Source: Leptolyngbya sp. FACHB-8
Lineage (GTDB): Bacteria; Cyanobacteriota; Cyanobacteriia; Elainellales; Elainellaceae
NCBI RefSeq assembly: GCF_014695575.1
Contig: NZ_JACJOO010000038.1
Span: forward strand, 1-64,000
Reading direction: 5' to 3'
DNA: 64,000 bases
The notes under the pieces are model-generated. The model saw only the letters and a program-made list of their open reading frames with translations, made no database searches and was not told where the DNA came from. This document shows, piece by piece, positions 11,870 through 53,573 of this stretch; position 1 is the first letter of the stretch, and the number at the start of each line of letters is the position of its first letter. The position numbers were made by a program, and so were the translations under genes.

Positions 11870-11890
11870 TCTTGAGTTCTAAAACCTTAA

Positions 11891-11925: not shown

Positions 11926-11929
11926 GATT

Positions 11930-11962: not shown

Positions 11963-11989
11963 AGAATGCACACTGCGATGAAGTTGGGG

Positions 11990-12535: not shown

Positions 12536-12655
12536 ATGGATCTAATTAGCAACCTCAACTGGGAAGTCATCGCTCAACTGACCCTGGTCGGGATGATCAT
12601 GCTCGCTGGCCCCATTGTCATCTTTGTTTTGGCATTCCGTGGCGGCGATCTCTAA
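12536..12655 (+). CDS. psb30: Photosystem II protein Psb30 (Ycf12)
   Basis: A 39-aa single-span thylakoid membrane subunit found at the periphery of photosystem II, which helps stabilise the complex. The translation starts [19 protein letters not shown] and ends VLAFRGGDL. It has a central hydrophobic span (about 14-34) and the conserved FRGGDL end of Psb30. GAGGA lies 5 bases before the ATG. The gene is easy to miss because of its size. It is the best organism marker in the window. Its proximity to ftsH, the PSII-repair protease family, is suggestive but not evidence of a functional link. Confidence 0.95.
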
Positions 12656-12730
12656 AGGGGTATAAAACATCCCGAACGCTGTTAGGGTTTAGAACCTTTG
12701 CCAGCACTTGCCTGCCCTTGTCCCTTGAAG

Positions 12731-12766
12731 CACAGGAAGCAATCTTTTAAGAAGATTGTTTCCTGT
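12731..12766 (+). terminator. Hairpin downstream of psb30
   Basis: CACAGGAAGCAATCTT pairs with AAGATTGTTTCCTGTC (mismatches) about 75 bases after psb30. No strong T-run. The rest of 12656-13042 is AT-rich upstream sequence of prs with no recognised gene. Confidence 0.5.
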
Positions 12767-13042
12767 CTTGGTCAGGCAAATAAAAGGGAAGACTCTTATT
12801 ATAGAGGTGTGCGCTTCAGTCAATCTGAAGCGTTTACCTTTATTTCAATGATTTTCCTTAATTTGGTCATTTCCCTACTTTTTGACGCACACCGCACTTT
12901 AGCGTTGAGTCAATCCTTTTTTGGGTCTTTTATGGCGTTTCTGCAGAGTTTTGCAAGAACGCCACAAATTGTAATGAATTCGGATAGCCTTTTAAGTCCG
13001 GAATGATAATATTGCGGTGACTCTTCTCTGCAAGGAACTGTC

Positions 13043-14035: not shown

Positions 14036-14061
14036 GTGTTTTCTCTTTGATTTAGAGCATG

Positions 14062-14106
14062 AAAACCATGGCTACTAATGCTTGTATAGGTAGCCATGGT
14101 TTTTTT
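14062..14106 (+). terminator. Intrinsic terminator of prs
   Basis: A 14-bp perfect stem (14062-14075 with 14090-14103) ends in a run of T that continues to 14106, 26 bases after the prs stop. Confidence 0.88.
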
Positions 14107-14171
14107 ATTTTTTAATGAAAGTTAAGGGTATTCATTGATGAATACCTGTAGCGATACCAAACTTAATTGGT

Positions 14172-14232
14172 GCATTAATGTTGTGTGTAGTGTGCTTCGT
14201 ACACCACACACAACATTAATGCGTAAGTCCTG
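14172..14232. repeat. Palindrome, family C copy
   Basis: GCATTAATGTTGTGTG pairs with CACACAACATTAATGC around a smaller GTGT/ACAC stem and apex, followed by GTAAGTCCTG. The right end GCGTAAGTCCTG is identical to the copies at 24590-24660 and 53483-53573. It reaches the stop codon of the DUF1574 gene. Confidence 0.85.
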
Positions 14233-33628: not shown

Positions 33629-36514
33629 ATGTCTTCTCAACCGCTGCTGATTCTCATCGACGGTCATTCCCTCGCATTCCGCTCTTACTTTGCTCACGCT
33701 AAAGGAAAGGATGGCGGCCTGCGCACCTCTACGGGAATCCCCACCAGCGTGTCCTACGGCTTTCTAAAAGCACTGTTGGACATGATGAAAATTGAGAATC
33801 CGCAGTATGTAATGGTTGCGTTTGACCCCAGCGAGCGTACCTTCCGCCACGAGGCAGACGAAACGTACAAGGAAGGTCGTCCCGATGCGCCCGAAGATTT
33901 TATGCCGGACCTGAAGAACTTGCAGGAGTTGTTGCGATCGCTCAATCTCCAGCTCTGTAGTGTTCCCGGTTATGAGGCAGATGACGTGATCGGGACGATG
34001 GCCCGAAAAGCGGTGGCGGAAGGGTTTCGGGTGAAGATCTTGACGGGCGATCGCGATTTGTTTCAGCTCATTGACGAAAACGAGCAAACCACCATTCTCT
34101 ACCTCAGCACCGTCTTTGGTAAAAGCACACCGCCGCCTCGGGAGTTTGGCGTGGAACAGGTGCGTGAGAAAATGGGCGTCGAACCGTCTCAGATCGTTGA
34201 TTACAAAGCCCTATGTGGGGATAGCTCCGACAATATCCCGGGCGTGAAGGGAATCGGGAACAAGACGGCAGTAGAGTTGTTGAGGCAATTTGGTTCCCTG
34301 GAAGAAGTCTACTCACGGCTGGATGAGGTGCCGAAGAAGGCAGTACGGACGAAGTTGGAGACTGGGAAGGATGATGCGTTGCGATCGCAATACCTGGCCC
34401 AAATTCATCTGAATGTGCCGGTGGATGTCAATCTGGAGCAGTGCAAGCTGCAAGGGTTTGACGAGGAAACCATTGTTCCTATGTTTGAGAAGCTGGAGTT
34501 TCGCTCGTTTTTGGGGCAGTTGCGGCAGTTGCGCGATCGCTTTAACGGCTTACCTCCTGCTGATGAGAAGGTAGAAGTGACTCCTATTAAGGAAGAGGAA
34601 CCTGAGGATAGCGATCTCTGGTTCTTCAGTGCAGAAGATACAGACACAACCAGCACTGCCAATATCCAGCCTCAAATTATTGATACCAATGAGAAGTTAG
34701 AAGAACTGCTGGCCCTTCTAATCACCTACACCGACCCCGATAAGCCTGTCGCCTGGGACACGGAAACGACTTCGTTGGAACCTCGGGATGCAGACCTGGT
34801 CGGTATTGGCTGCTGCTGGGGGCCGGGACCATCGGACTTGGCTTATATCCCGGTTGGTCATACCCATGGCACGAATCTAGATAAAGATGTTGTGCTAGAA
34901 GTGCTGCGTCCGATTCTAGAAGACAAAGCCTATCCCAAGGCGTTGCAGAATGCTAAATACGATCGCCTGGTGTTGCGCTGCCAGGGTATTTGCTTGGCTG
35001 GAGTGGTGTTTGACACGATGCTAGCCAGCTACGTGCTCAACCCAGAGGAGAAACACAACCTCGGCGAACTGAGCCTCAAGTATTTGGGCCTGATCACCAA
35101 GAGTTATACCGATCTGGTCCCCAAGGGAAAAACGATTGCGGATGTCAGCATTGCGGATGTCGCTGATTATTGTGGCACCGATGTCCACACAACGTATCTG
35201 CTCGTGTCGAAGCTACGGACCAGGATGGAGCCTCTACCTCAACTCCGAAGACTACTGGAAGCTGTTGAACAGCCTTTGGAGCCTGTTCTGGCGGAGATGG
35301 AATATACGGGAATTCGCATTAATCAGGAGTACCTGGCGGATTTCTCGAAGCAGTTAGAAGAAGACCTGGCCATGATTGAAAAACACGCCTACGAGGTAGC
35401 GGGCGAAAAGTTTAAGCTGGGTTCTCCTAAGCAATTGAGCGAATTGCTCTTTGAAAAACTAAAGCTAAACCATCGAAAGTCTAAGAAACGGGCAACAGGT
35501 TACTCCACAGATGCGGCGACCTTAGAGAAATTGCAGGGTGATCACCCGGTAATCGACTACATCATCGAATATCGCTCGTTGTCCAAGTTGAAATCCACCT
35601 ATGTGGATGCGCTGCCTGCTCTGGTACGGCCCGATACCCATCGTGTGCACACCGACTTTAACCAGGCTATTACGACAACAGGGCGGCTTTCGTCCTCTGA
35701 CCCGAATCTACAAAATATTCCCACTCGCACGGCCTTCAGCCGCCAAATCCGCAAAGCCTTTTTGCCTCGGGAGGGTTGGCTGTTGGTGGCGGCCGACTAT
35801 TCACAGATTGAGTTGCGGATTCTTGCTCACCTGAGCCAGGAGCCGATTCTCATCGAAACATATCAAAACAACGAAGATGTCCATGCGTTAACCGCGCGTC
35901 TTTTATTTGAGAAAGATGACGTCACCTCCGATGAACGACGGTTAGCGAAAACTATCAACTTCGGTGTGATCTATGGCATGGGAGCGCAGCGGTTTGCGCG
36001 AGAGTCAGGCTTTAGCACGGCTCAAGCAAAAACGTTTATCGATCGCTTCTACGAACGTTATTCTAAAGTTTTTGAATATCTGCAACAAATGCAGCGGGAG
36101 GCACTGGCTCAGGGGTACGTCGAAACTATTTTGGGTCGCCGCCGGTACTTCAACTTCAACACAACTGATATGCAGGTTTTGCGCGGTCGGGATCCTGATT
36201 CGATTGACTTGAACAAGATTCGTGCTCGTGACCAGTATGATGCTCAGCTTCTACGAGCTGCTGCAAATGCCCCGATTCAGGGTTCTAGTGCTGACATTAT
36301 TAAGATTGCGATGATTCGCCTCCACGAGATTTTGAAGCAGCATCAATCGAACCTGCTACTACAGGTTCACGATGAACTGGTCTTTGAGGTAGCGCCTGAA
36401 GAATGGGAGACCTTAAAGCCAGAAATTCAGTCTGCGATGGAGTCGGCTGTTAGTTTAAGCGTTCCTCTCAAGGTGGAGATGAATGCGGGGCCAAATTGGA
36501 TGGAGGCGAAATAG
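33629..36514 (+). CDS. polA: DNA polymerase I
   Basis: A 961-aa repair and Okazaki-fragment processing polymerase with three domains. The 5' nuclease (1 to about 300) has LIDGHSLAFRSYF, GYEADDVIGT and GDSSDNIPGVKGIG. The 3'-5' exonuclease domain (about 345-550) keeps WDTETTSL and later DYCGTDV, so proofreading residues appear intact. The polymerase domain (about 560-961) has DYSQIELRILAH, the KTINFGVIYGMG O-helix and the LLQVHDELVFE motif. Full length for the family. Upstream 33526-33628 has no clear ribosome-binding site. Confidence 0.96.
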   Translation: MSSQPLLILIDGHSLAFRSYFAHAKGKDGGLRTSTGIPTSVSYGFLKALLDMMKIENPQYVMVAFDPSERTFRHEADETYKEGRPDAPEDFMPDLKNLQELLRSLNLQLCSVPGYEADDVIGTMARKAVAEGFRVKILTGDRDLFQLIDENEQTTILYLSTVFGKSTPPPREFGVEQVREKMGVEPSQIVDYKALCGDSSDNIPGVKGIGNKTAVELLRQFGSLEEVYSRLDEVPKKAVRTKLETGKDDALRSQYLAQIHLNVPVDVNLEQCKLQGFDEETIVPMFEKLEFRSFLGQLRQLRDRFNGLPPADEKVEVTPIKEEEPEDSDLWFFSAEDTDTTSTANIQPQIIDTNEKLEELLALLITYTDPDKPVAWDTETTSLEPRDADLVGIGCCWGPGPSDLAYIPVGHTHGTNLDKDVVLEVLRPILEDKAYPKALQNAKYDRLVLRCQGICLAGVVFDTMLASYVLNPEEKHNLGELSLKYLGLITKSYTDLVPKGKTIADVSIADVADYCGTDVHTTYLLVSKLRTRMEPLPQLRRLLEAVEQPLEPVLAEMEYTGIRINQEYLADFSKQLEEDLAMIEKHAYEVAGEKFKLGSPKQLSELLFEKLKLNHRKSKKRATGYSTDAATLEKLQGDHPVIDYIIEYRSLSKLKSTYVDALPALVRPDTHRVHTDFNQAITTTGRLSSSDPNLQNIPTRTAFSRQIRKAFLPREGWLLVAADYSQIELRILAHLSQEPILIETYQNNEDVHALTARLLFEKDDVTSDERRLAKTINFGVIYGMGAQRFARESGFSTAQAKTFIDRFYERYSKVFEYLQQMQREALAQGYVETILGRRRYFNFNTTDMQVLRGRDPDSIDLNKIRARDQYDAQLLRAAANAPIQGSSADIIKIAMIRLHEILKQHQSNLLLQVHDELVFEVAPEEWETLKPEIQSAMESAVSLSVPLKVEMNAGPNWMEAK

Positions 36515-40890: not shown

Positions 40891-41016
40891 GGATTTATAG
40901 AAACCTTACGGGATTTATGTCGCCACCCATACTACTGTGGCTGTAAGATTTGGACTATCGCCGGATGGGTGATTGTTATGGAGGCAGGACAATGCCCTGT
41001 CTTATAACAAGTAAAG

Positions 41017-41083
41017 TTAAATGCTTATGATAAAAAGTGGTGCGGCGCAAAGCACCGCACCACTTTTTATCATAAGCATTTAA
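41017..41083. repeat. Family D palindrome, copy 2
   Basis: TTAAATGCTTATGATAAAAA.. (41017-41045) pairs perfectly over 29 bp with 41055-41083. It is the same design as 32531-32595, with paired differences in the arms (CTGATG/CATCAG there, CTTATG/CATAAG here). Confidence 0.9.
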
Positions 41084-41203
41084 CCCGATGTGATATTAAC
41101 TTGGTGATACTTTTTGACCTGTATTAGGGATGCGAATTGTGTCAGGTGGCGATCGCCCATTTCAATGTTCATTGACGTGAATTGAGTAAGCCAGAAAAAG
41201 CCT

Positions 41204-41237
41204 AGAAACCCGGTGTTTCTAGAAACACCGGGTTTCT
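41204..41237. repeat. Family E palindrome, copy 2 (perfect)
   Basis: AGAAACCCGGTGTTTCT and its exact complement form a 34-base loopless palindrome, 51 bases after fadE, and may end the fad operon. Confidence 0.88.
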
Positions 41238-41287: not shown

Positions 41288-43711
41288 TTAAACGACCGTT
41301 GTATTAATCGGCATAAGGCGTTCTCGCTGATACTCTTCTGTGGTGAAGGCATCTACTTGAATTGCATCATTGCGGGCAGTTTCGGCTTCTCGGAGCAGGT
41401 TCTTTTCAGCGTCGCTAATGAGACCTGATGCATAGGCCGTTTCGATCGGATCGAGGGGGCCGGAGGAGCGACTGGATGCCTTGATCCGTTTGAGAATGGG
41501 GTCGGCTTGACGAACCCGATCAAAGGCGTGCTCCAATCGGCCCAACGCCTGGTCGACATCGGTGGGGATGTGAATGCCTGTGGTGAGGCGATCGCGCACC
41601 ACTCCACCTTTCTGTAAGTTCTGCGCGACCTGGCTCCCCAACTTATCGGAAGGAACGGTGCCGAGAGGATTCAATCGCCAAAAAGTCAAAGCAGGGCCAC
41701 GCAGGAGGCTCCCAAGGATGGGAATATCTAGATTGCTGAAGATGCCCTCAAAGGCTTCCTGCATTTGGGCGAAGGCATATTGCATGACCCAATGCACCAT
41801 GGGTAAGTCTTCGGCTTGCTGGCCTTCGGCCTCAAATCTCCGCAGGGTAGCGGTGCCCAGGTACAGCCAGGAGAGAACATCGGCAAACCGTCCAGTCAGT
41901 TTTTCCTTGCGTTTCAGAGAGCCACCGAAGGCAATGAGCGCAATATCAGTGAGTAGTGCAAAGGTGGCCGAGGCCCAGGTGAGTTTGCGATAGTACTGTG
42001 CAGTGGGGCCAGAAACGGGGGAATGGGCCAGTCGTCCTCGGGTTAAGTAAAGCAGTTTTGCTCGAAATACGTTGCGTACCAGCGAACCCATGTGCGGCCA
42101 GAAGGCCTGGTCAAATGCGGCGACATCGCCAGTGTGTAGAGCTTGCGTTTCTGCATACACGTAAGGATGGCAGCGGATTACACCCTGTCCAAAGATCATC
42201 AAGGTGCGCGTGAGGATGTTAGCTCCTTCGACCGTGATGGAAATGGGAGTGGCAGTGTAAAGGTTGGCTAAGAGGTTGCGGGGGCCACGACAAATCCCGG
42301 AGCCGCCCAGAATATCCATGCCGTCGTTGATGATGCGGCGGTAGAGTTCAGTGGTGTTGTATTTGGCGATCGCCGACACCACTGCCGGTTGTTCGCCTCG
42401 ATCTACGGCACCGCAAGTGTAGAGTCGCACAGCGTCCATCATATAGGTGAAGGCTGCAATACGGGCCAGGGGTTCTTCAACACCTTCAAATCGGCCAATG
42501 GATAAGCCAAACTGCTGGCGCACAACACTGTGGGCACTGGCAACGCGAGATACCAATTGTGCAACCCCAGTACAGCTTGCCGGGAAGCTAATGCCCCGTC
42601 CGGCAGCGAGGGATTGCATGAGCATTTTCCAACCCTGACCTGCTTGCTCTACGCCACCGATAATTTGTTCGATGGGCAGGATGACGTTATGGCCTTCTGT
42701 GGGAGAGTTGTAGAAGGGAACTCCCATGGGATCATGGCGTTTATTGATGAGGACACCAGGGGTGTTGGTGGGAACGAGAACGCAGGTGATGCCAACATCC
42801 TGACCTTTGCCCAGCAGGTTATCGGGGTCGCGCAGGCGGAAGGCGAGGCCGAGGAGGGTGGCGATCGCCCCCATGGTAATGTACCGCTTACGCCAGTTCA
42901 GCCGTAGATACAGCTTGCCATCCTCACCCCGGAACACGTCACCGTGGGAGGTAATGTTGGCTGCATCGGAACCGGCTGTAGGTTCCGTTAAGGCAAAGCA
43001 GGGAATGTCTTCGCCGCTGGCAAGTCGTGGCAGGTAGTGCTGTTTCTGCTCGGTTGTGCCGTAGCGGAGGAGGAGTTTCGCGGGGCCGAGGGAGTTGGCA
43101 ACGCCCACCGTGGCAATGTAGGTGAAGGAACGTGAGGAGAGTTTCACCATGACGGCACTGTAGGCCAGGTTTGAGAAGCCCAATCCACCGTACTCTTTGG
43201 GAATCATCATCCCAAAGAAGCGTTCTTGCTTCAGGTAATCCCAAACTTCTGGTGGCAGGTCTTTTCGTTGATAGATGTCCCAGTCTGTTGCCATTTGGCA
43301 GACTTGTTCCACTGGCCCATCGAGAAATGCCTGTAACTCGGGTGATAATTCCGGATAGGGTTCGTTGAGAATGCGATCGAAGTTGGGTTTTCCAGTAAAA
43401 AACTCCCCTTCAACCCACACGTTGCCCGCCTCAATCGCGGCCCGCTCTGTATCAGAGATTTTGGGCAACAGCTTCATGCGGTGAATCAGCTTGACCAGCG
43501 GCGCGGTCACGAGCCGTTGTCTGAGGGCTGGAAGGTTGAGGATCAGGGCGATCGCCCCACATATACCCCACACAGCAATGGGTGGGTTGAACATGGCGAG
43601 AACGGCGATCGCATACACCGTCCATATCCACAGCGACACACCTAAATAACCCAACACGACTAATAAAATCAGCAGTGTTGGGATCGTAAATATGAACGGT
43701 AGGGAGATCAT
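41288..43711 (-). CDS. fadE: Acyl-CoA dehydrogenase, FadE type
   Basis: Catalyses the first oxidation of fatty acyl-CoA to trans-2-enoyl-CoA with FAD. The 807-aa protein matches the size and plan of E. coli FadE: two or three hydrophobic N-terminal segments (about 4-60), a dehydrogenase core from about 110 and the long C-terminal DUF1974-like extension. Core motifs include PKEYGGLGFSN, FALTEPTAGSDA (about 239-250) and AGQGWKMLMQSLAAGRG. No electron-transfer flavoprotein gene is nearby. It is the last gene of the fad cluster, 151 bases after fadA with a family E hairpin between. Several HIP1 sites lie inside. Confidence 0.93.
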   Translation of the reverse strand: MISLPFIFTIPTLLILLVVLGYLGVSLWIWTVYAIAVLAMFNPPIAVWGICGAIALILNLPALRQRLVTAPLVKLIHRMKLLPKISDTERAAIEAGNVWVEGEFFTGKPNFDRILNEPYPELSPELQAFLDGPVEQVCQMATDWDIYQRKDLPPEVWDYLKQERFFGMMIPKEYGGLGFSNLAYSAVMVKLSSRSFTYIATVGVANSLGPAKLLLRYGTTEQKQHYLPRLASGEDIPCFALTEPTAGSDAANITSHGDVFRGEDGKLYLRLNWRKRYITMGAIATLLGLAFRLRDPDNLLGKGQDVGITCVLVPTNTPGVLINKRHDPMGVPFYNSPTEGHNVILPIEQIIGGVEQAGQGWKMLMQSLAAGRGISFPASCTGVAQLVSRVASAHSVVRQQFGLSIGRFEGVEEPLARIAAFTYMMDAVRLYTCGAVDRGEQPAVVSAIAKYNTTELYRRIINDGMDILGGSGICRGPRNLLANLYTATPISITVEGANILTRTLMIFGQGVIRCHPYVYAETQALHTGDVAAFDQAFWPHMGSLVRNVFRAKLLYLTRGRLAHSPVSGPTAQYYRKLTWASATFALLTDIALIAFGGSLKRKEKLTGRFADVLSWLYLGTATLRRFEAEGQQAEDLPMVHWVMQYAFAQMQEAFEGIFSNLDIPILGSLLRGPALTFWRLNPLGTVPSDKLGSQVAQNLQKGGVVRDRLTTGIHIPTDVDQALGRLEHAFDRVRQADPILKRIKASSRSSGPLDPIETAYASGLISDAEKNLLREAETARNDAIQVDAFTTEEYQRERLMPINTTVV

Positions 43712-43807
43712 AACTAACCATCCTAGGGAGATGTACGAATGAATGAGTTTAGTGAAGGGATAAAACTCATCTACAAATTGACTTTTAGATTGTGGAGTGT
43801 GGAGTCC

Positions 43808-43841
43808 AGACGCCCGGTGTTTTCAAAAACACTGGGCGTCT
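43808..43841. repeat. Family E palindrome between fadA and fadE
   Basis: AGACGCCCGGTGTTTT pairs with AAAACACTGGGCGTCT (one G-T change). It is 22 bases after fadA. It may partially terminate or protect the fadA end of a polycistronic transcript, lowering fadE expression. Confidence 0.8.
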
Positions 43842-43862
43842 TAGCGGCTATTCCTGGTTGGG

Positions 43863-45041
43863 TTACAGCATCAACTCGAATACGCCTGCTGCACCCATAC
43901 CGCCGCCAACGCACATGCTAACCAGACCGTAGCGTACGCCACGTCGCTTCATTTCATGGAGGAGGGTGGCGGTGAGTTTGGCTCCGGAGCAGCCGAGGGG
44001 GTGGCCAAGGGCGATCGCCCCTCCATTGACGCTCACGATCTCGTCATTCAGACCCAGTTCGCGGATGACGGCTAGCGCCTGGGCGGCAAAGGCTTCGTTG
44101 AGTTCAATTAAGCCGATGTCGCCCAGTGTCAGCCCCACTTGCTGTAACACCTTGGGAATCGCAACCGCTGGGCCGATGCCCATTATTTCAGGTGCGACTC
44201 CCGCAACGGCGTATCCCAGCAAGCGTCCCAGGGGTTTAACCCCAAGCTCGTTGACCATGCGTTCGCTCATGACGACCGTGGCGGCGGCGCCGTCCGACAT
44301 TTGGGAGGCGTTACCAGCGGTGACAGTGCCGTTCAAGCGAAAGGCGGGTTTGAGATTGGCAAGGGCTTCCAGGCTGGTGTCAGCCCGTGGCCCCTCGTCA
44401 GTATCGAAGATGATTTCGTGGGTAACGGGTTGGCCGTTCTCGTAGAGGGTTTCGCGAACGGTGAGAGGAATGATTTCATCCTTGAAGTGACCAGCGGCGA
44501 TCGCCTTCAACGCCCGCTGGTGCGATCGCAATGCATAGGCATCCTGATCCGCGCGAGACACATGGAAGCGTTCTGCCACGTTCTCGGCGGTGAGGCCCAT
44601 GGTGATGTAAGCGCCAGGGGCATCCGCCAACAAATCGGCGTTGGGCAAGAACTGGTGACCGCCCATGGGAATCAAGCTCATGGATTCCACGCCACCCGCT
44701 ACTATGACATCGGCCTGGCCGAAGGCGATTGCCTGAGTCGCCATAGCGATGGACTGCAAGCCTGACGAGCAGAGGCGATTGACGGTGCAGCCGGAAACGG
44801 AGTCTGGAAGACCCGCTCGCATAGCAACGATACGGCCCAGGTTGAAGCCCTGCTCGGCTTCGGGCATGGCGCATCCCAGAATAACGTCATCGATCTGGTT
44901 GGAGACCAGGTTGGGAATTTGGGCGATCGCCCCTTTCACGGCTGTGGCTCCCAAATCGTCGGGGCGGGTGTGGCGGAGCGTGCCTCGAGGTGCCTTGCCT
45001 ACCGCTGTCCGGACGCTGCTCACAATGTAGGTGTTGTTCAT
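43863..45041 (-). CDS. fadA: Acetyl-CoA acyltransferase (thiolase)
   Basis: Cleaves 3-ketoacyl-CoA with CoA to acetyl-CoA and a shortened acyl-CoA. The 392-aa protein has the nucleophile cysteine in NRLCSSGLQS (about 88-97), NEAFAAQAL, the GGAIALGHPLGCSGA histidine motif and the C-terminal CVGGGMGAAG cysteine. This is the degradative, broad-specificity thiolase I arrangement rather than the PHB biosynthetic type, although sequence alone cannot exclude the latter. Its ATG is two bases after the fadN stop and its ribosome-binding site (GAGGAAT) lies inside fadN, so the two are translationally coupled. Confidence 0.94.
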   Translation of the reverse strand: MNNTYIVSSVRTAVGKAPRGTLRHTRPDDLGATAVKGAIAQIPNLVSNQIDDVILGCAMPEAEQGFNLGRIVAMRAGLPDSVSGCTVNRLCSSGLQSIAMATQAIAFGQADVIVAGGVESMSLIPMGGHQFLPNADLLADAPGAYITMGLTAENVAERFHVSRADQDAYALRSHQRALKAIAAGHFKDEIIPLTVRETLYENGQPVTHEIIFDTDEGPRADTSLEALANLKPAFRLNGTVTAGNASQMSDGAAATVVMSERMVNELGVKPLGRLLGYAVAGVAPEIMGIGPAVAIPKVLQQVGLTLGDIGLIELNEAFAAQALAVIRELGLNDEIVSVNGGAIALGHPLGCSGAKLTATLLHEMKRRGVRYGLVSMCVGGGMGAAGVFELML

Positions 45042-45043
45042 GA

Positions 45044-47371
45044 TTAATTCCTCAGCGGCTTCTTGGTCGTCAGCATGTGTAAGATTCGTTCTTTCGTCTT
45101 GGGCTCATCCACCAGCGGCAAGAAGAGTTCTCGCTCTAACCGCAGCAGATAGTCCTCATCTACCAGGGAGGAAGCCGTCAACTCGCCTCCGGTGAGGACG
45201 TAAGCTAACCGATGGGCCAAGGCATGGTCGTATTCGCTGATGTAGCCTCCCTGCTCCAGGGTTTGGGCCATGTGCTCAAATACGGCTCGGGCGGGTTGTC
45301 CCAGTACGTGAATGGGGTTACGGGGTGGGGCCGTGTAGCCCAGATAGTCGAGGTCGAGAACCTCCTGTTTGGCAACGTAGAGGCGGCGATCGCCATTCAC
45401 CACCACTTTTGTCATCGGGTTCAGGAATCCTAACGCCACCCCTTCATAGGCACTGTTCGCGACTTTCGCCATGCCGATGGTTTCAAAGACCCGCTTCAGG
45501 AATGGCAGGATGTCGCCGGGGGTGTCTGTTGCGGCACGACTGGCCGCCCAGCGAGCCATCCGCATCAAACCACCGCCTGCGGGAATCAGGCCAACGCCCA
45601 ACTCCACTAAACCAATATAGGTTTCTGCGTCAGCGACGATGTGAGGACAGGCCATCGCCAGCTCACAACCGCCACCCAGCACACGTCCTTGAATCGCCGC
45701 CACGATCGGCTTATGGAAGTAATGAATGCGCTGTACCAGCGTTTGGAATTTGATGATCAGGTCGGTGAGGGCACGGTGATTGCGGTTGAAGGGATTCAGG
45801 TTTTCCCATTGGACAATTTTGCCGACTTCCGCCAGGTTAATGCCGACGCAGAAGTTCTCACCCTCGTTGCCAATCACCATGCCCCGGTAATCGTGGGTTT
45901 CCAACCAATCTAGAGCCGCAATCAACCCATCGATTACCTGAACGCTGAGTGTGTTGGCTTTAGAACGGAACTCGAACAGGGTGACGCCATCTCCTAAATC
46001 CAACAAAGCTGCTTCGGAATTGTGCCAGAGGGTCGCTTTGGGATTAGCTTTGATGTCGGCCAGGTGAATTTCATCGATGGGTTTTGCGGCGATCGCCCCC
46101 ACTTGCCCATAAAACCCACCAGACATCGACATCACCCAGTCTGGTACGGTGAGGCCAGCCTTTTGCATATCGGCACGAACCATTTCAAAACCCAGGGCAT
46201 CCCAGATTTCAAACGGTCCCATCTCCCAACCAAAGCCCCAGCGCATGGCCTGATCAACGTCGATAGGACGATCGGCAATTTCGGGAATGCGGTTGGCACT
46301 GTAGGCCAGGGTGGCCAGGGTGGTTTGCCGGAAAAAGTCTCCAGCGCGGCCTTTTTGGTGATAGAGCTTGCGCAGGCGATCGCTCAGATCTGGGAGTTTG
46401 GCAATTCCATCCAAATTGCCCAAATTCATTGGTTTTGCAGGTTCATAGGCCAGGGTATGAATGTTAACAGAATGGATTTCTCCTTTCACTTTCTTGTAAA
46501 ATCCCTGCCCAACTTTGGCTCCCAATGATCCAGTTTCCGTCAACTTTCGCATCAACTCCGGGATGCGAAACATTTCTCGCTGTTCATCATTCGGAACAAC
46601 TGGATATAGGTTATCGGATACATAGGTAAGCGTATCCAACCCCACTAAATCAGCGGTGCGGAAGGTGGCGGATTTGGGCCGACCAACTACGGTACCCGTC
46701 AACTGATCGATCTCTTCAATGGTGTAACCCTGCTCCGTCAAAGCTTTCAGCCCCAGCATGGTGACAAATACGCCGATGCGGTTGGCGATGAAGTTGGGCG
46801 TATCCTTCGCGATGACAATACCTTTGCCCAGGTGCATCCGCCCGAACCACTGCATCCGTGCCAGCACCTCTGGATCGGTATCAGCGGTGGGAATCAGTTC
46901 TAATAGCTTCAGGTAGCGGGGTGGGTTGAAGAAGTGGGTGCCCAGGAAGCGCTTCCGGAAGGATTTGGAACGGTGTTGGGCGATCGCCCCAATGGACAAC
47001 CCGCTGGTATTGCTGGAAATAACGGTGTCGGGGCGAACGGTCTTTTCGACCCGTTCCATCAACTGTTGTTTAACAGCTAAGTTTTCCACGACGACTTCAA
47101 TCACCCAATCCACCTGAGCCAAGCGATCGAAATGATCTTCATAGTTGCCCAGAATCACCCGCTGAGCGATTTGCTCGGTATAAAAAACAGGGGGGGATTG
47201 CTTTAACGCTTTTTTGAAAGCTCCTTCTACCAGGCTGTTGCGATCGCCCGATTGGGCTGGAAGTTCTAGCAGGTGCACGGTTAAACCTGCATTGGCTAGA
47301 TGGGCGGCAATCTGGGTTCCCATTACCCCCGCACCCAATACAGCAGCTGTTCGAAATGGTTTAAACATCAT
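45044..47371 (-). CDS. fadN: 3-Hydroxyacyl-CoA dehydrogenase / enoyl-CoA hydratase
   Basis: A 775-aa bifunctional beta-oxidation enzyme. The N-terminal NAD-dependent dehydrogenase has the Rossmann motif GAGVMGTQIA (14-23), SSNTSGLSI and THFFNPPRYLKLLE. The C-terminal crotonase-fold domain (about 450-640) has NFCVGINL, VLGGGCELAMA and VELGVGLIPAGGG, keeping both catalytic glutamates. The order dehydrogenase-then-hydratase is that of Bacillus FadN, opposite to E. coli FadB. AGGAAA precedes ATGATG at 47371/47368. It starts 36 bases after fadD and is coupled to fadA. Confidence 0.94.
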   Translation of the reverse strand: MMFKPFRTAAVLGAGVMGTQIAAHLANAGLTVHLLELPAQSGDRNSLVEGAFKKALKQSPPVFYTEQIAQRVILGNYEDHFDRLAQVDWVIEVVVENLAVKQQLMERVEKTVRPDTVISSNTSGLSIGAIAQHRSKSFRKRFLGTHFFNPPRYLKLLELIPTADTDPEVLARMQWFGRMHLGKGIVIAKDTPNFIANRIGVFVTMLGLKALTEQGYTIEEIDQLTGTVVGRPKSATFRTADLVGLDTLTYVSDNLYPVVPNDEQREMFRIPELMRKLTETGSLGAKVGQGFYKKVKGEIHSVNIHTLAYEPAKPMNLGNLDGIAKLPDLSDRLRKLYHQKGRAGDFFRQTTLATLAYSANRIPEIADRPIDVDQAMRWGFGWEMGPFEIWDALGFEMVRADMQKAGLTVPDWVMSMSGGFYGQVGAIAAKPIDEIHLADIKANPKATLWHNSEAALLDLGDGVTLFEFRSKANTLSVQVIDGLIAALDWLETHDYRGMVIGNEGENFCVGINLAEVGKIVQWENLNPFNRNHRALTDLIIKFQTLVQRIHYFHKPIVAAIQGRVLGGGCELAMACPHIVADAETYIGLVELGVGLIPAGGGLMRMARWAASRAATDTPGDILPFLKRVFETIGMAKVANSAYEGVALGFLNPMTKVVVNGDRRLYVAKQEVLDLDYLGYTAPPRNPIHVLGQPARAVFEHMAQTLEQGGYISEYDHALAHRLAYVLTGGELTASSLVDEDYLLRLERELFLPLVDEPKTKERILHMLTTKKPLRN

Positions 47372-47406
47372 TGATTTTCCTCACAATGCAGCAGTTGATG
47401 ATGCGT

Positions 47407-49470
47407 TTAGTAATGGGTTAGGGACTGAGCATAGGCAGGGCAGGTAGCAGCGGCCATCGGTGGACAAACCACATTGGGATCATCTGATTGCAACTCAATT
47501 TCGTTGCTATAAAATGCGCCAATCTCACTGGCAAACGCGTCTAGAACCTGTGCACGATTCAGTGTTCCATCCGCATTGAGGAATCCGTTTTCGATGGTTA
47601 ATTCGACTGGAATGAGTTTGAATTTACGCACCGTTGACCAATACGGTAGATGACAGTTGGCTGCATCGATTAATGCTTGATACCGTGTCAGCAGACAAGG
47701 ATGCTGCAAGCTTGTCAATGACGATGCAGCACCCAGCAAGGTTAGTTCCCGCTGTACCCAATCCAGATTTGGGAAAATCAGGAGAGCGCAGAATTTATGA
47801 TTGGCACCGACAATAACAGCATGGCTTATCAGAGGAGATTGATTGAGTTCTTGCTCCAATGGCAGGGCTGAAACATACTTGCCGGTTGACAGTTTGAATA
47901 GCGATTTTTTCACTCCAGTTAGACGTAGAAATCCATCCGGTGTGATTTCGCCTAAATCGCCCGTATGTAACCAACCTTCGCTATCGATCGCCCGCTTTGT
48001 TGCTTCTGCATCCCGATAATATCCCTGCATCACAAACGGGCCACGAATGAGAACTTCGCAATCGGGGGCGATCGCTATCTCGACTCCCGGAATCGGTACT
48101 CCTACAGTCCCTGCCCGGTTATGGCTGCCCCGGTTGTAGCAGAGTACAGCACTGGTTTCTGTTAGACCATATCCCTGTAGAAGTGGAATTCCTGCGGCTG
48201 AGAGTGCGTTGGCTAAGTCAGGACGTAGTGCGGCTCCACCACAGATTAAGGCTTTCATGCGATCGCCAAATACAACTCGCCATTTGCTAAACACCAACCG
48301 ATCTGCCAGTTTCAGTTGAAGCCCATAGAGCCGCTTAGGAGGTTCGCCAAGTTCATATCGCTGTGCAACTTTGAGTGCCCAGGTGAACACAGCGCGATCA
48401 AATTTTTGCAGCCGTTTACCTTGTTCCAAAATGCGCTCGTATATCTTTTCAATTAAGCGTGGAACCGTAATTAGGATCGTTGGATTAACGGTTTTGAGAT
48501 GCTTAACGATATGGTTAGGGTCTGAAAAATAGATACTGTGGCCGTAGGCTAAATGTCCATAGAAGAAGGCACGGGCAAAGATATGAGTGAGGGGTAGAAA
48601 CAACAGAGCGGTTTCCTTTTCACCTGTCTCTAAGCCGGGAAAGCAACTGAAGGCAGACAGAATATCGGCCGAGATGTTTTCATGGCTGAGCATGACGCCA
48701 CGGGGGCGTTTCGTTTCGCTGGCGATATAGAGGATGGTGGCTAAATCAGAAGGGGCGATCGCCTCTCGCAACGACTGTAAGCGTTCCTCAGACCATCTCT
48801 CTCGCCCTATTGTTCTCACCTCATCCAGTGACCAGATTTGCAATTGAGAGGGCAACCCCTCCACCTGACCAACGGGTTCTAATGGAGCGGCATTGAAGAT
48901 TTGTGGTTCATGCAGGCAGTCGTCATCAAGAGGACCATGGGCCTTTTGCCCTGGCTGCTCCTCATTGTTTTTGAGGTGTCGTCGAATCTGCTCCCAGTCC
49001 CCCGGAACATCTACTACAAGAACGGCTTGTAGCGATGGAGCTTCCTGTAAATGGGGTGCAATCTGGTAAAACAGATCCACATTGGAAATAACTAGAATCT
49101 TCGCATCCGAGTGTTGCAGGATAACCAGGATGTTCTCAATGGTTTGAGTGAGGTCAATGGGAACATCTACCAGACCCGCCAGTAAGCATCCCATGTCGGT
49201 AATGCAAAAGGGCAGATCACTGTGCATTACGAATGCAACGCGATCACCTCGTTGCAAAGCAAATGATAATAACCCTAATGCAAATTCTTCAGCAGCAGTA
49301 CGAAATTCTCCATTAGAAAGGGATTGCCAACGGCGTTTTTGCCACTGGTTTAAGGCATGGTCATTGGGATAGCGATCGCACGCTTCATCCAACAATGAAG
49401 GCAACGTACGCCCCAAGCTCAGGCTACCGGTATCCGGTGGGGCATGGTAGAGGGTTAATAGTCCAGCCAT
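47407..49470 (-). CDS. fadD: Long-chain acyl-CoA synthetase-like enzyme with altered P-loop
   Basis: A 687-aa adenylate-forming enzyme, first gene of the fad cluster, expected to activate fatty acids to acyl-CoA. Motifs present: GYGLTETSAV, GWLHTGDLGEI, the hinge region LRLTGVKKSLFKL and STGKYVSALPLEQ. But the ATP-binding loop, normally TSGTTGxPKG, reads IASETKRPRG (249-258): both glycines and one threonine are gone and Lys is Arg. The frame is intact on both sides, so this is not a sequencing frameshift. Activity may be reduced, or the protein may bind acyl chains differently. Residues 165-215 form an insertion with low complexity. No membrane span. Confidence 0.85.
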   Translation of the reverse strand: MAGLLTLYHAPPDTGSLSLGRTLPSLLDEACDRYPNDHALNQWQKRRWQSLSNGEFRTAAEEFALGLLSFALQRGDRVAFVMHSDLPFCITDMGCLLAGLVDVPIDLTQTIENILVILQHSDAKILVISNVDLFYQIAPHLQEAPSLQAVLVVDVPGDWEQIRRHLKNNEEQPGQKAHGPLDDDCLHEPQIFNAAPLEPVGQVEGLPSQLQIWSLDEVRTIGRERWSEERLQSLREAIAPSDLATILYIASETKRPRGVMLSHENISADILSAFSCFPGLETGEKETALLFLPLTHIFARAFFYGHLAYGHSIYFSDPNHIVKHLKTVNPTILITVPRLIEKIYERILEQGKRLQKFDRAVFTWALKVAQRYELGEPPKRLYGLQLKLADRLVFSKWRVVFGDRMKALICGGAALRPDLANALSAAGIPLLQGYGLTETSAVLCYNRGSHNRAGTVGVPIPGVEIAIAPDCEVLIRGPFVMQGYYRDAEATKRAIDSEGWLHTGDLGEITPDGFLRLTGVKKSLFKLSTGKYVSALPLEQELNQSPLISHAVIVGANHKFCALLIFPNLDWVQRELTLLGAASSLTSLQHPCLLTRYQALIDAANCHLPYWSTVRKFKLIPVELTIENGFLNADGTLNRAQVLDAFASEIGAFYSNEIELQSDDPNVVCPPMAAATCPAYAQSLTHY

Positions 49471-50270: not shown

Positions 50271-50340
50271 TTTACCAGACTAAGAGAAGTTAAAAGTGTG
50301 GCATACCTGCCTATCTATTAAAATATTTCGCTGGGCTGTA

Positions 50341-50396
50341 AAAGACTTAGAAACCCGGTGTTTTTCAACTACCGGGTTTCTAGAAGCTAAGTCTTT
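50341..50396. repeat. Family E palindrome inside a larger stem
   Basis: The outer arms AAAGACTTAG and CTAAGTCTTT enclose the ACCCGGT..ACCGGGT core. It overlaps the first bases of the stop codon of the 293-aa hydrolase (50395-50397), so it is placed to end that transcript. Confidence 0.78.
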
Positions 50397-51276
50397 AGCT
50401 GATAGAAATTAGGCGACCGCTCAATCGACAAACATGTAAGTCTCCATCGATATGTCGATCTAACCAATTCGAAATATCTACGATTACTTGAGGCATATCC
50501 AGGTCATTGTGTAAGTCGTGGTAAGCATCTGGGTATTCGCGATACTCTTTGTCTACAATGGCTAGTTTTTCGAAGAGTTCATGGCTGTTGGCCGGTGGTG
50601 TAACAATATCGTTTCCGCCATGGAGAACTAGGACGGGGATTTGTAGCTGAGCCAGGTTCGTATCGATCCACCGAATTGTTTTTAGAAACTCGGAAACCAG
50701 ACGAGCCGTGCCTCTGCGATGGCGAAGAGGGTCCTGGGTGTAGGCGGTGATGACATTTGGGTCACGGGAGCCTGCATTTTGAGGAATACCCGTGTCGAGA
50801 GAGAAGCGGGGGTAGACCCAGGAGAGGATTTGCCCGGCAGCTAAGCGCCACGCTGGGACGCCAGAGGGGTTAAGGGATGGGGCCATGAGAATGAGGCCGG
50901 ATAGGGCCTGGCGATCGCGCAGGGCTACGTCGAGCAGAATGATGGCTCCCAGGCTGTGGCCCAATGCGAAGCAAGGGATATCGGGGTGTTGATCTGCCAT
51001 TAATTGCTGAAAGCGATCGATGTCGCCCCGGAATTCTGACCAGTGGTTAATATAGGCGCGTTGACCGGGCGATCGCCCGTGACCCCGTAAATCGAGGTTA
51101 TAGGCGGCGTACCCCTGGGATGCTAAGTTTTCTGCTATGCCTTGAAACCATCCGCTGTGGCTGCCGAGGCCGTGGATGATGCCAATCGTAGCTTTGGGGG
51201 TGGTTGAGGGCTGCCAGCTTTGGTAATAAAGGTCAATTCCGTTTGTGCCCTTGAAGGTTCCTTCGGAGTGCGGCAT
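50395..51276 (-). CDS. Alpha/beta hydrolase, monoacylglycerol lipase/lysophospholipase type
   Basis: A 293-aa serine hydrolase. Motifs in order: oxyanion region IHGLGSHSG, LRGHGRSPGQR, nucleophile elbow GHSLG, the acid in LHGGNDIVTP and the histidine in DAYHDLHND. This set is typical of monoglyceride lipase and lysophospholipase. Start placed at the ATG at 51276, after AGGAAAC; the open frame continues 62 codons upstream, but that part is low-complexity and includes a hairpin at 51297-51336. Release of fatty acids from glycerolipids would supply the adjacent acyl-CoA synthetase, an inference from location only. Confidence 0.85.
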   Translation of the reverse strand: MPHSEGTFKGTNGIDLYYQSWQPSTTPKATIGIIHGLGSHSGWFQGIAENLASQGYAAYNLDLRGHGRSPGQRAYINHWSEFRGDIDRFQQLMADQHPDIPCFALGHSLGAIILLDVALRDRQALSGLILMAPSLNPSGVPAWRLAAGQILSWVYPRFSLDTGIPQNAGSRDPNVITAYTQDPLRHRRGTARLVSEFLKTIRWIDTNLAQLQIPVLVLHGGNDIVTPPANSHELFEKLAIVDKEYREYPDAYHDLHNDLDMPQVIVDISNWLDRHIDGDLHVCRLSGRLISIS

Positions 51277-51296
51277 GGTTTTGTTTCCTGAATAAG

Positions 51297-51336
51297 GCGG
51301 TTGTTTTTGGGTGGAAAGCACACGAGAAAAACAACT
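51297..51336. repeat. Hairpin in the hydrolase leader
   Basis: CGGTTGTTTTTGGGTG pairs with CACACGAGAAAAACAAC (mismatches) about 20 bases before the chosen hydrolase start. It supports the shorter start. Confidence 0.5.
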
Positions 51337-51620
51337 TTGAGTTTTAGAGAAAGCTGTGGGTTGATTGAAAATCGTGATGGATGTTAAGGGTTGCTGCTTG
51401 GGGGTGCGTCGCCCCTCCCCCCACTGAGGGGCGGTTGCCCGTTCCCCAGACCTCCTTGGCAAAAGGAGTTTTGGATGGGAGGCGTTAGGCCACTTCGCAT
51501 CTGTGGGGTTTTTGATCCGGCTTGGGTGGGGTATTTATGAGGGAATGATTGGAGTATGTAGTGTTGGGGGCTGTTGGGCTCTGCATGATGAATTGGGGTT
51601 GGAGACGTTTTTTAGGCAGC

Positions 51621-53270
51621 TTATGAAGGGGGGGAATTGGGTGCTGTGGTTATGGCTGTTAATGTTTCGTTAAGTTCTTGGAGGAGCGTCTGAAGTTGAG
51701 AGCTGGAGCGATCGCTGATTAATGATAGCCCTAGAGGGGGTTGGCTAAGGGCAGCGGCGAAGGTGGCGCTAAGGGTGGGGGTAAGTGGGACGCCAGAATG
51801 TAGGTGTTGGTTGAAGAAGGCGAGGCTGAGAACGTTGGTGTAGGTGTCAAAGGGGGTTGGCTCCTGCGTGGTGGCAAGGGGTAGGGTGGGGGGCAATAGT
51901 TTGATGTGTAATTCTAACTGTTGAACGAGGCGTTGTAGGTCGCGTAGGTGCGATTTTCCTTGCATGAGGGCAAGGTAGCGGTGAGGAGCCGTGAGCCATT
52001 GAAATAGGCGGGCTTGTTCTAGTACAAGGGGAGTGACGGCATCATGGCTTCCGGCGATAAATAGTACGGGGATTTGAATATGGGCCATGCCTTCTGCGCC
52101 AAACATCTCACTACCCAGAGGTTCCATGGCCAGGATGGCTTGGACACGCGGATCTCGCAGGTTATAGATATGGCGAGGTAAACGGAGGGCCTGACATTGC
52201 AGTAACAGTGAGGGGTTATGGGGATGGCGGACGTGAATATGACAGGTGTTTTCCAGAGCTTCAAAGTGTAGCTCGGCACCAGCCAGGGCAAAGGTGGTAT
52301 AGGCTCCGAAGGAGTAACCTAGAACACCTACAGATGTGAGGTTCAAGCGATCGCCAAACTGGCTCTTGTTCCGCTGTTCTAGCTCATCAAGAAGGGCACT
52401 GATATCGTGGGGTCGATGAATAAACTCGGCTTGTTCAAAGACTTCGGGCGATCGCCCCGCTAACATCTCCCGTGCATACACGCTGTCGCTACCTGGATGT
52501 TGGGGGGCGGCAACAAAATAACCATGAGATGCGAGATGGTGGGCATATTCCGCGAGGTCTTCTGGGTTGGAGGCTAACCCATGGGATTGAATGACAACGG
52601 GAATCGAGGAATTGTCGCAATCTTGCGGTTGATAACAGATAACCCGCATCGTTCCTCGTGACCCCCGCTCGACTACCAGATCGTAGGCTTGCACTGCCCA
52701 GGGGCCGGGTTGCTGAAGCGCGGACAGTACGCTGGCATCAACTACCGCGTCGAGAATGGCTTCGGCTTCGGCTAGTTCTCCGATGGTGGCGATCGCCTTT
52801 TCAGTTACTTCTAGAAGTAATCTCACTCGGTTGGTGGTCATTAAAAGGTGATCGACGTTCACCTGCAATGCGTTTGGACCATACCGCAAAATGCTCAATA
52901 GGGAGAGGCCATCGGGGTCGGCAGCTAGCTGGAGTAGCACCTCTGCGATCGCATCATCCGATAAGTGAAAGAAGGGGGCGAGCCATTGCAGTAGATAACC
53001 ACCCAGGCCTGTTTGCAGGAAATACTGAAGTTGCTTTGGGTTGAGTTCCACGCGCGATCGCAAAATTCGACGGCAACTCGACAGATATTGGGGGTCGCTT
53101 TTACCAAAGTAAACTTGACAAACCTGATTCGCGACGTAGGGTAATTTTTTAGAGTCGAAGAATTCTTGCGATCGCCGTAATGCCCTCAGAATCAAAACTT
53201 TAAGGCGATTAAATGCAGCTTCACGAAAACTAGAAGATGGAGAATCGGGCGGAGAGTCAACGTAACCCAT
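51621..53270 (-). CDS. DUF1400-type alpha/beta hydrolase
   Basis: A 549-aa cyanobacterial esterase- or PAF-acetylhydrolase-like protein. The N-terminal 140 residues carry a DUF1400-like helical segment (LSLLSILRYGPNALQVN near 133-149). The hydrolase domain (about 205-460) has VIQSHGLASNPED, the nucleophile elbow LGYSFGAYT (about 314-322), the acid in IAGSHDAVTP and a histidine in GKSHLRDL. Usually these proteins have a signal peptide; none is obvious here, so it may be cytoplasmic. It is on the same strand as the next hydrolase but 344 bases upstream. Confidence 0.85.
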   Translation of the reverse strand: MGYVDSPPDSPSSSFREAAFNRLKVLILRALRRSQEFFDSKKLPYVANQVCQVYFGKSDPQYLSSCRRILRSRVELNPKQLQYFLQTGLGGYLLQWLAPFFHLSDDAIAEVLLQLAADPDGLSLLSILRYGPNALQVNVDHLLMTTNRVRLLLEVTEKAIATIGELAEAEAILDAVVDASVLSALQQPGPWAVQAYDLVVERGSRGTMRVICYQPQDCDNSSIPVVIQSHGLASNPEDLAEYAHHLASHGYFVAAPQHPGSDSVYAREMLAGRSPEVFEQAEFIHRPHDISALLDELEQRNKSQFGDRLNLTSVGVLGYSFGAYTTFALAGAELHFEALENTCHIHVRHPHNPSLLLQCQALRLPRHIYNLRDPRVQAILAMEPLGSEMFGAEGMAHIQIPVLFIAGSHDAVTPLVLEQARLFQWLTAPHRYLALMQGKSHLRDLQRLVQQLELHIKLLPPTLPLATTQEPTPFDTYTNVLSLAFFNQHLHSGVPLTPTLSATFAAALSQPPLGLSLISDRSSSQLQTLLQELNETLTAITTAPNSPPS

Positions 53271-53386
53271 GGCACAACACCTTGCAGACCAGCATTGCCG
53301 TCCTGCCTCTCCTGATCTTGTTATAAACCACGCCTGGCCCGAATAGGGGCGTCGATATAATAAGCAACACTCTGAGCAATTAGGAT

Positions 53387-53443
53387 CTCTTTCAAAGTCA
53401 TTTTTTTGTATGTGGAGTGTACGAAAACATGACTTTGAAAGAG
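53387..53443. repeat. 15-bp inverted repeat with 27-base loop
   Basis: CTCTTTCAAAGTCAT (53387-53401) and ATGACTTTGAAAGAG (53429-53443) are exact complements. It is upstream of the DUF1400 gene. Confidence 0.75.
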
Positions 53444-53482
53444 AGTTGGGCGATCGCTATAAATTGCATCCACCAGCTTCAT

Positions 53483-53573
53483 CAGGACTTACGCAAGCCC
53501 GCTATATGTAGTGTATTTGTGTTGTAGGTGGGGTGCTTTGCACCCCACCTACAACACAAATGCGTAAGTCCTG
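53483..53573. repeat. Family C element with an insertion in the left arm
   Basis: CAGGACTTACGCA and TGCGTAAGTCCTG are the ends; the 22-bp inner hairpin is 53515-53536 with 53540-53561. The left arm carries about 19 extra bases (53496-53514, with GCTATATGTAG) absent from the copy at 24590-24660. Confidence 0.9.

Follow-up and report, generated by a model that had tools for sequence, protein, structure and literature searches.

The stretch of DNA analysed here, referred to as the window, comprises positions 1–64,000 (64,000 nucleotides) of contig NZ_JACJOO010000038.1, which has a total length of 79,230 bases, in assembly GCF_014695575.1 of Leptolyngbya sp. FACHB-8. The genome measures 6.93 Mb and is 99.5% complete, with an estimated contamination of 0.89%. 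The minus strand of the window carries a cluster of four genes attributed to fatty-acid beta-oxidation, which the listing of open reading frames (ORFs) places in the transcription order AMP-binding protein, FadN-type enzyme, thiolase and FadE. An earlier note, made from the letters of the window, had described four same-strand genes with the thiolase gene 2 bases from the FadN gene; the ORFs and the family scans agree with this description, the FadN stop and the thiolase start being 2 bp apart. The four genes are as follows.

41288..43711, minus strand: FadE-type acyl-CoA dehydrogenase, 807 aa, with a hydrophobic N-terminus, an ACDH_C domain and the catalytic Glu495
43863..45041, minus strand: thiolase (acetyl-CoA C-acyltransferase), 392 aa, with Cys91, His347 and Cys377
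45044..47371, minus strand: FadN-type 3-hydroxyacyl-CoA dehydrogenase / enoyl-CoA hydratase, 775 aa
47407..49470, minus strand: acyl-CoA-synthetase-like protein with a degenerate ATP site, a probable pseudo-synthetase, 687 aa, PF00501 and PF23562

Distribution and residency of the cluster

Relatives of the cluster were collected in a scan of named species with two peptide patterns from cyanobacterial FadE, of which the best 80 of 138 were used. These 80 loci comprise 70 cyanobacterial ones, L062 (labelled Gracilibacteria) being counted among them, and 10 from other phyla. The 70, together with the window, L021 and L029, make up the 73 cyanobacterial loci or alignment rows referred to below, and L019, L020, L022 and L023 were excluded from trees and counts, as they lie on the same contigs as L031, L041, L069 and L073. 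Fischerella thermalis PCC 7521, Chlorogloeopsis fritschii PCC 6912, Nodosilinea nodulosa PCC 7104 and Calothrix sp. NIES-4101 (complete genome) are among the relatives. All four genes are full-length in 57 loci, on one strand in 57/57 and in the same order in 56/57. The conserved order that the earlier note proposed to look for in other cyanobacteria was found in each of the 55 cyanobacterial loci of this set; of the other two, L106 from Lentisphaera marina has the same order and L103 a different one. All four homologues are also present in 20/20 class-sample regions, partly from the same genomes, where two ORFs each are read for FadN in L191 and for the synthetase in L196. The four genes give concordant pairwise distances (Mantel r 0.85–0.91; highest of 500 permutations 0.22).

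The cluster is not the exception among cyanobacteria that the earlier note had taken it for. FadE (PF09317) was found in 74 of 388 genomes of the class sample (59/334 of good quality; 44/160 genera), a sample that, like the phylum sample used below, is no unbiased measure of prevalence because the two differ in make-up, and expression of such genes in Chlorogloeopsis is already in print in passages of PMC6424891. In a quick maximum-likelihood tree of FadE with bacterial homologues (86 rows; support from the Shimodaira–Hasegawa-like approximate likelihood-ratio test, SH-aLRT, only), a comparison that the note had also called for, the 73 cyanobacterial rows are separated from all others by a branch with support 100, with an outgroup whose choice is biased, having been set by the two peptide patterns from cyanobacterial FadE. 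Inner groups correspond to Nostocales (14 rows, support 99), Xenococcaceae and relatives (8 rows, 100), Acaryochloris (5 rows, 97) and a Nodosilinea type (6 rows, 100). Support is weak for 25 of the 83 inner branches. Two of the four f30 genomes, which are members of the phylum outside the window's class, have a FadE that falls outside the cyanobacterial group. Because of the one FadE group and the concordant gene distances, a single entry with joint inheritance and many losses fits best: among the sampled relatives, the cluster appears to have entered cyanobacteria once and to have been kept or lost along lineages since. The other sampled genome of the window's genus, G550, has no FadE match, and the cluster therefore comes or goes within one genus.

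The octamer HIP1 (GCGATCGC) occurs 18 times in 41288–49470, against 0.18 expected from dinucleotides, and 99 times in the whole window, against 1.07 expected. Taking into account this density, the one cyanobacterial FadE group and the gene order kept in 55/55 loci, the cluster has long been resident in cyanobacteria, as the earlier note had concluded from the spread of HIP1 when it argued against a fresh import. It is a real cluster, resident in a true cyanobacterium.

Two of the loci have peculiarities of their own. L029 (NZ_CP071719.1), the 277-kb plasmid pMB02 of Acaryochloris sp. 'Moss Beach', carries the whole cluster at 4841–14370; its synthetase and FadN regions each consist of two overlapping ORFs, and its gene table, which is incomplete, shows none over FadN. 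L062 (JAAUUT010000127.1), filed under Candidatus Gracilibacteria, carries the cluster with the synthetase in two ORFs, lies nearest to Hydrococcus in the FadE tree and is probably a misbinned cyanobacterial contig. Elsewhere on the window's own contig, the ORF 33629–36514 is taken by us, from its sequence, for DNA polymerase I.

Catalytic residues of FadE, thiolase and the FadN-type enzyme

FadE matches PF09317 with 325.8 bits (cut-off 25) and PRK09463 with 1025 bits (cut-off 600), and combines an ACAD core with an ACDH_C domain. It is of the long PF09317 type, its score with the Bacillus FadE model being 108 bits for a cut-off of 600. Glu495 is kept in 73/73 cyanobacterial and 10/10 other rows of the alignment. 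The nearest solved folds of the AlphaFold2 (AF2) model (pLDDT 86) are very-long-chain acyl-CoA dehydrogenase (VLCAD) and ACAD9, and the N-terminus shows hydrophobic stretches within residues 1–64, with helices at 6–23, 27–41 and 45–59 in the model. Four further residues, Lys212, Gln366, Phe376 and Gly464, are identical in 73/73 cyanobacterial FadE and differ in most others; Lys212 takes the place of a Glu that all 12 other compared rows and E. coli carry.

The thiolase shows Thiolase_N and Thiolase_C domains, and its Cys-His-Cys set (Cys91, His347 and Cys377) is entirely kept in 62/62 cyanobacterial rows. The FadN-type enzyme consists of 3HCDH_N, 3HCDH and ECH_1 domains, with the dehydrogenase first and the hydratase second, which is the FadN order; its best NCBIfam model is Staph_FadB, which it matches with 659 bits where the model asks for 999. 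Both of its catalytic pairs are present, His146 being kept in 58/59 cyanobacterial rows and Glu158, Glu570 and Glu590 in 59/59. The catalytic roles of the FadE, thiolase and FadN residues are those known from their families.

No electron-transfer flavoprotein gene found

A search for the electron-transfer flavoprotein (ETF, PF01012) found none in the FACHB-8 genome and none in 49 and in 70 other FadE-bearing cyanobacteria (0/49 and 0/70), the same search being positive in 10 of 14 control genomes. The set of 49 derives from 57 of the 70 cyanobacterial relatives, the other 13 being L062 and loci whose cluster genes were few or broken, and does not include L034; the set of 70 consists of the 74 FadE-bearing class genomes minus four covered earlier; the two counts are not summed because the sets partly overlap. 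ETF-quinone oxidoreductase (ETF-QO, PF05187) was found in 0/50 cyanobacteria, including FACHB-8, and in 2/10 non-cyanobacterial FadE genomes. The earlier note, which had seen no ETF gene near the cluster and had proposed a search of the genome for both proteins, thus understated its case: the gap is genome-wide, and it is systematic in the genomes searched.

Within the phylum sample, ETF occurs in 181 of 386 genomes, in 0/6 FadE-bearing genomes of the window's class and in 4/4 FadE-bearing f30 genomes. The only two genomes of the class that have it in this sample, G177 and G332 (family f25, genus g55), do not bear FadE. Beyond cyanobacteria, ETF was found in 7/10 FadE genomes, and not found in the Lentisphaerota L102 and L106 nor in L103. 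Lentisphaera marina L106, with the same gene order, a canonical synthetase and no ETF found, possibly represents an ancestor-like state of the cluster.

Two ideas were considered and rejected. An ETF signature within FadE is not supported, as the ETF-less L102, L103 and L106 mostly carry the other state at the ten alignment columns that part cyanobacterial from ETF-bearing FadE. Nor does a hidden ETF or acceptor gene lie near the cluster, since no redox-carrier gene recurs in the 73 cyanobacterial loci; the families that do recur are those of the four cluster genes and of a single hydrolase, each present in 35 to 73 loci, against at most 8 for any other family.

According to passages of Sirithanakorn and Imlay (PMC11495604), E. 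coli FadE has no natural redox partner identified so far and may reduce quinones directly, so that cyanobacteria provide natural ETF-free test cases. A 2022 review (PMC9329746) states, in the part concerned, that no ETF needed for growth of E. coli on fatty acids is known, and mentions speculation that the C-terminal domain of FadE is a substitute.

A synthetase-like protein with a degenerate ATP site

The earlier note had called the motifs of the cluster intact, which holds for the FadE, thiolase and FadN residues described above and fails for the P-loop and the A8 arginine of the synthetase. The protein of the window consists of AMP-binding and AMP-binding_C_3 domains; its P-loop reads IASETKRPRG where the canonical one is TSGTTGxPKG, and valine replaces the core A8 arginine. 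With a pattern widened so that E. coli FadD matches, the canonical P-loop (motif A3) was found in 0/56 cyanobacterial cluster synthetases (proteins of at least 450 aa) versus 9/9 control ligases, and in 0/20 class-sample regions, a set overlapping the 56. The controls are E. coli FadD, L129, L122 and L135 of the FACHB-8 genome, and the ligases of Lentisphaera marina, L103, Tsukamurella, Photobacterium and Paraburkholderia. The core A8 arginine is likewise present in 0/55 cluster synthetases, one row being gapped, versus 9/9 controls; the Ser position of the P-loop is occupied by Pro or Ala in 56/56, and the A5 glutamate has become Gln in 17/56. Of sixteen columns invariant in the nine controls, six are often changed in the cluster proteins, namely four in the P-loop together with those of the A5 glutamate and the A8 arginine. 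The remaining ten are kept in 51–56 of 55–56 proteins (TGD Asp in 55/55). The P-loop Lys is kept in 23/56, and the A10 lysine is Lys in 6/56 at an aligned column whose region aligns poorly, 10 cluster rows and 3/9 controls (including E. coli FadD) being gapped there.

The adenylating-enzyme fold is predicted as kept in the AF2 model (pLDDT 87.5), whose nearest solved folds are carboxylic acid reductase adenylation domains and CoA ligases. The pattern of substitutions suggests that the cluster protein is probably a conserved pseudo-synthetase that would have lost its activity. That it is instead an active synthetase with an altered ATP site appears doubtful: the ten conserved columns, the fold intact in the model and the retention of the gene with the cluster speak for activity, but the uniform replacement of the P-loop Ser, the missing A8 arginine, the A5 changes and the mostly lost A10 lysine speak against it, and so does the fact that the canonical residues at these positions are kept both in the same-order relative Lentisphaera marina L106 and in L129 of FACHB-8 itself.

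The earlier note's description of the cluster as complete is therefore not supported: since its synthetase has lost ATP-site residues, fatty acids are probably activated by another ligase of the genome. Two candidates may be named. L129 is the closest relative of the cluster synthetase in the genome (31% identity), and presumably belongs to the type that is an acyl-ACP (acyl carrier protein) synthetase in Synechocystis; L135 is acyl-CoA-synthetase-like, with a score under its model's cut-off.

Upstream hydrolases and transcription signals

Two alpha/beta hydrolase genes that the earlier note had not mentioned lie on the same strand upstream of the cluster. They are given here with the hairpins of the region (PAF, platelet-activating factor).

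50395..51462, minus strand: monoacylglycerol-lipase-like alpha/beta hydrolase (Hydrolase_4, 230.7 bits)
51621..53270, minus strand: DUF1400 / PAF-acetylhydrolase-like alpha/beta hydrolase, 549 aa (family scan), with a weaker claim to cluster membership
41204..41237, minus strand: terminator-like hairpin 3' of FadE, a possible end of the transcription unit, with perfect 17-nt arms, a 15-pair stem and a T run
43790..43862, minus strand: strong hairpin in the thiolase–FadE gap, which may keep the expression of FadE separate (RNA fold −24.8 kcal/mol, z −4.0)
50335..50394, minus strand: strong hairpin directly 3' of the 50395 hydrolase gene (RNA fold −24.4 kcal/mol, z −5.6), not in the terminator-scan list

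The listed ORF of the first hydrolase opens at a TTG, although the gene more probably starts with the ATG at 51276. Its best solved relatives are monoacylglycerol lipases, including that of M. tuberculosis. A homologue of at least 240 aa is present in 40/73 cyanobacterial loci, with the triad Ser170/Asp285/His315 kept in 40/40 rows. Homologues of the second hydrolase were found in 8/73 cyanobacterial loci and in 5/20 class-sample regions, many of the loci compared ending short of its position; they adjoin the homologue of the first in L030 and L085. Both hydrolases are joined as a single ORF in L067, L072 and L091, and further in the class-sample regions L205–L207, two of which are probably genomes counted before. 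In L073 and L079 it is the synthetase that forms a single ORF with a hydrolase of the 50395 type. Because lipase-like genes recur and are sometimes fused, the cluster probably acts on membrane or storage lipid. The earlier note's statement that it degrades the fatty acids of such lipids can be retained in this probable form.

In the window, the strong hairpin after the 50395 hydrolase gene and the gap of ~925 bp that separates this gene from that of the synthetase make their co-transcription doubtful. Promoter and terminator scans of the region gave site counts not above those of shuffles. Long near-perfect inverted repeats flank the cluster and the hydrolase genes on both sides (41016–41084, 53386–53444 and 53515–53561; arms of 33, 25 and 22 nt).

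Proposed pathway and alternatives

The reading that we consider probable is that of a lipid catabolism cluster whose FadE passes electrons straight into the membrane quinone pool. The lipase-like hydrolases would release fatty acids from membrane or storage lipids, and these would be converted to CoA thioesters, most likely by another ligase, for which L129 and L135 are candidates. The synthetase-like protein of the cluster would bind acyl groups or pass them on between the lipase and the beta-oxidation enzymes. FadE, the FadN-type enzyme and thiolase, whose catalytic residues are intact, would run the beta-oxidation cycle, as judged from their families. FadE, anchored by its hydrophobic N-terminus, would re-oxidise its FAD without ETF by direct transfer to the membrane quinone pool, and the acetyl-CoA formed would enter the tricarboxylic acid cycle or re-synthesis. 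A more specific version, advanced tentatively and with the balance leaning somewhat against it, holds both that cyanobacterial FadE might be a membrane acyl-CoA:plastoquinone oxidoreductase that feeds the photosynthetic and respiratory quinone pool without ETF, and that the pseudo-synthetase might have traded ATP chemistry for the hand-over of acyl groups supplied by a lipase partner, the two being fused in some lineages.

Several observations weigh against this reading. A passage of PMC8047662 cites cyanobacterial fatty acids, the strain not being named, as staying labelled for at least a day. In the phylum sample, FadE occurs in 10/386 genomes, only 6 of them in the window's class, and rows under the names Leptolyngbya, Leptolyngbyaceae and Pseudanabaenaceae occur at scattered places in the FadE tree, which may reflect naming or transfer. 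No FadE residue tracks ETF presence among the alignment columns compared, and the absence of ETF is not a mark of cyanobacteria alone, as 3/10 non-cyanobacterial FadE genomes lack it too. Since Lys is found at A10 in 6/56 and in the P-loop in 23/56 cluster synthetases, some synthetase activity may remain. Lipase homologues of at least 240 aa are missing from 33/73 cyanobacterial loci, some of them cut by contig ends, and a single transcription unit is not assured, because hairpins follow the lipase gene and part thiolase from FadE. Finally, oxygen or an unrecognised carrier would fit the sequence data as well as the predicted transfer to quinones.

The first of these acceptors would make FadE an acyl-CoA oxidase, in which oxygen re-oxidises FADH2 and a catalase or peroxidase then removes the H2O2. 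Neither ETF nor ETF-QO was found and oxygen is abundant in an oxygen-producing cell; moreover, passages of PMC11495604 report increased H2O2 formation in vivo when beta-oxidation runs through E. coli FadE, and note the likeness of this enzyme to an acyl-CoA oxidase. The same paper, however, calls this electron transfer to oxygen inadvertent, the solved structures nearest to FadE are VLCAD and ACAD9, and the 50 listed include no acyl-CoA oxidase and one prolyl-ACP oxidase, at rank 36. An oxidase would also waste part of the energy and reducing power that the authors of PMC6424891, in the passages concerned, infer from the induction in C. fritschii. We regard an oxidase as unlikely. A non-ETF protein carrier encoded elsewhere, for example ferredoxin-like or flavodoxin-like, has a similarly low probability in our estimate: the comparison covered loci, so that genes elsewhere could supply one, but the 73 cyanobacterial loci show no other gene as a recurrent neighbour of the cluster.

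A different kind of acyl chemistry, such as chain shortening in secondary metabolism, the use of branched or aromatic acids, or operation in the reverse, synthetic direction, seems improbable. In its favour are the still putative substrate, the unusual synthetase, and very long ORFs with AMP-binding domains in the FACHB-8 genome that look to us like non-ribosomal peptide synthetases. Against it stand the long-type FadE, the lipase neighbours and fusions, and the wide spread over families and genera, as well as the induction with lipid breakdown described for C. fritschii in passages of PMC6424891. Contaminating or freshly imported DNA, to which the patchy distribution, the FadE-less G550 of the same genus and the Acaryochloris plasmid might point, can be dismissed with near certainty given the HIP1 density, a phosphoribulokinase on the same contig (464 bits), the 0.89% contamination, the one cyanobacterial FadE group and the presence of the cluster in records titled complete genome or chromosome (for example CP019636.1 and AP018280.1).

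Lipid catabolism with direct transfer of electrons to quinones remains our preferred reading. A glyoxylate shunt as its fixed partner was rejected: no isocitrate lyase was found in the FACHB-8 genome, and a full-length one is present in only 5/50 FadE-bearing cyanobacteria (G386, G391, G396, G415 and G434). In the phylum sample, the sole genome of the class with a full-length isocitrate lyase, G334, is also FadE-bearing, and the other same-class matches are partial (around positions 150–253 of the family). On these counts, beta-oxidation and the glyoxylate cycle may be linked. A glyoxylate cycle in C. fritschii is recounted in a passage of PMC5160925.

Cyanobacteria, or Synechocystis, are said to lack beta-oxidation in passages of two papers, of 2021 and 2025 (PMC8047662 and PMC11973298). 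Single cyanobacterial cases are nevertheless already in print: as described in parts of PMC6424891, the beta-oxidation genes of C. fritschii PCC 9212 show ~10-fold higher expression once the cells have spent 48 h in far-red light, and 15–70-fold higher expression in rfpBC mutants, and a metagenome-assembled genome of Phormidium pseudopriestleyi is credited with full beta-oxidation capacity in a passage of PMC8002359. What would surprise a specialist is the breadth, the pseudo-synthetase and the ETF-free setting. Among the matches listed in searches of open-access full text, no paper was found on the distribution of the cluster, the missing ETF or the ATP site of the synthetase, the subscription literature being mostly outside the search. 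A conserved cluster whose marker gene is present in 74/388 genomes of the class would change the picture of cyanobacteria without beta-oxidation, with consequences for lipid turnover, for biofuel strains and for how cells survive in dark or far-red light. FadE-bearing cyanobacteria without a recognisable ETF make the ETF-free hypothesis testable, and the conservation, within a catabolic cluster, of a synthetase that has lost ATP-site residues raises a question of its own.

Comparison with known systems

E. coli FadE (plasmid records) is 46.5% identical to that of the window over 96% of the query, and shares with it the ACDH_C domain, the hydrophobic N-terminus and, going by the passages of PMC11495604, the lack of an identified redox partner. 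E. coli differs in having ETF homologues, as seen in the control search and stated in part of PMC9329746, as well as a FadD with a canonical P-loop and a FadB whose domains come in the reverse order, and in lacking a comparable gene cluster at fadE. The FadN-type operons of Bacillus and Staphylococcus share the FadN domain order, the best family score being that of Staph_FadB with 659 bits, and the nearest plasmid relatives outside cyanobacteria are from Paenibacillus (43%) and Priestia (42%). Bacillus differs in its FadE, whose model the long PF09317-type enzyme described here matches far below cut-off (108 bits against 600).

The cluster of Lentisphaera marina (L106; NZ_JAQZZL010000002.1, 4691–12406) has the same order synthetase–FadN–thiolase–FadE, with identities to the window of 37% over 407 aa, 46%, 57% and 49%, respectively. 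It differs in that its synthetase keeps the canonical ATP site and its FadE lies outside the cyanobacterial group. Among 125 genomes of Lentisphaera's phylum, a full-length FadE was found only in the centre genome, and four others gave weak partial matches.

In C. fritschii, strain PCC 6912 carries this cluster (L100) and differs from FACHB-8 in having an isocitrate lyase (G434). In strain PCC 9212, UYEDRAFT_05553–05556 are, according to a passage of PMC6424891, four consecutive beta-oxidation genes, as here, and these four genes would be the same cluster.

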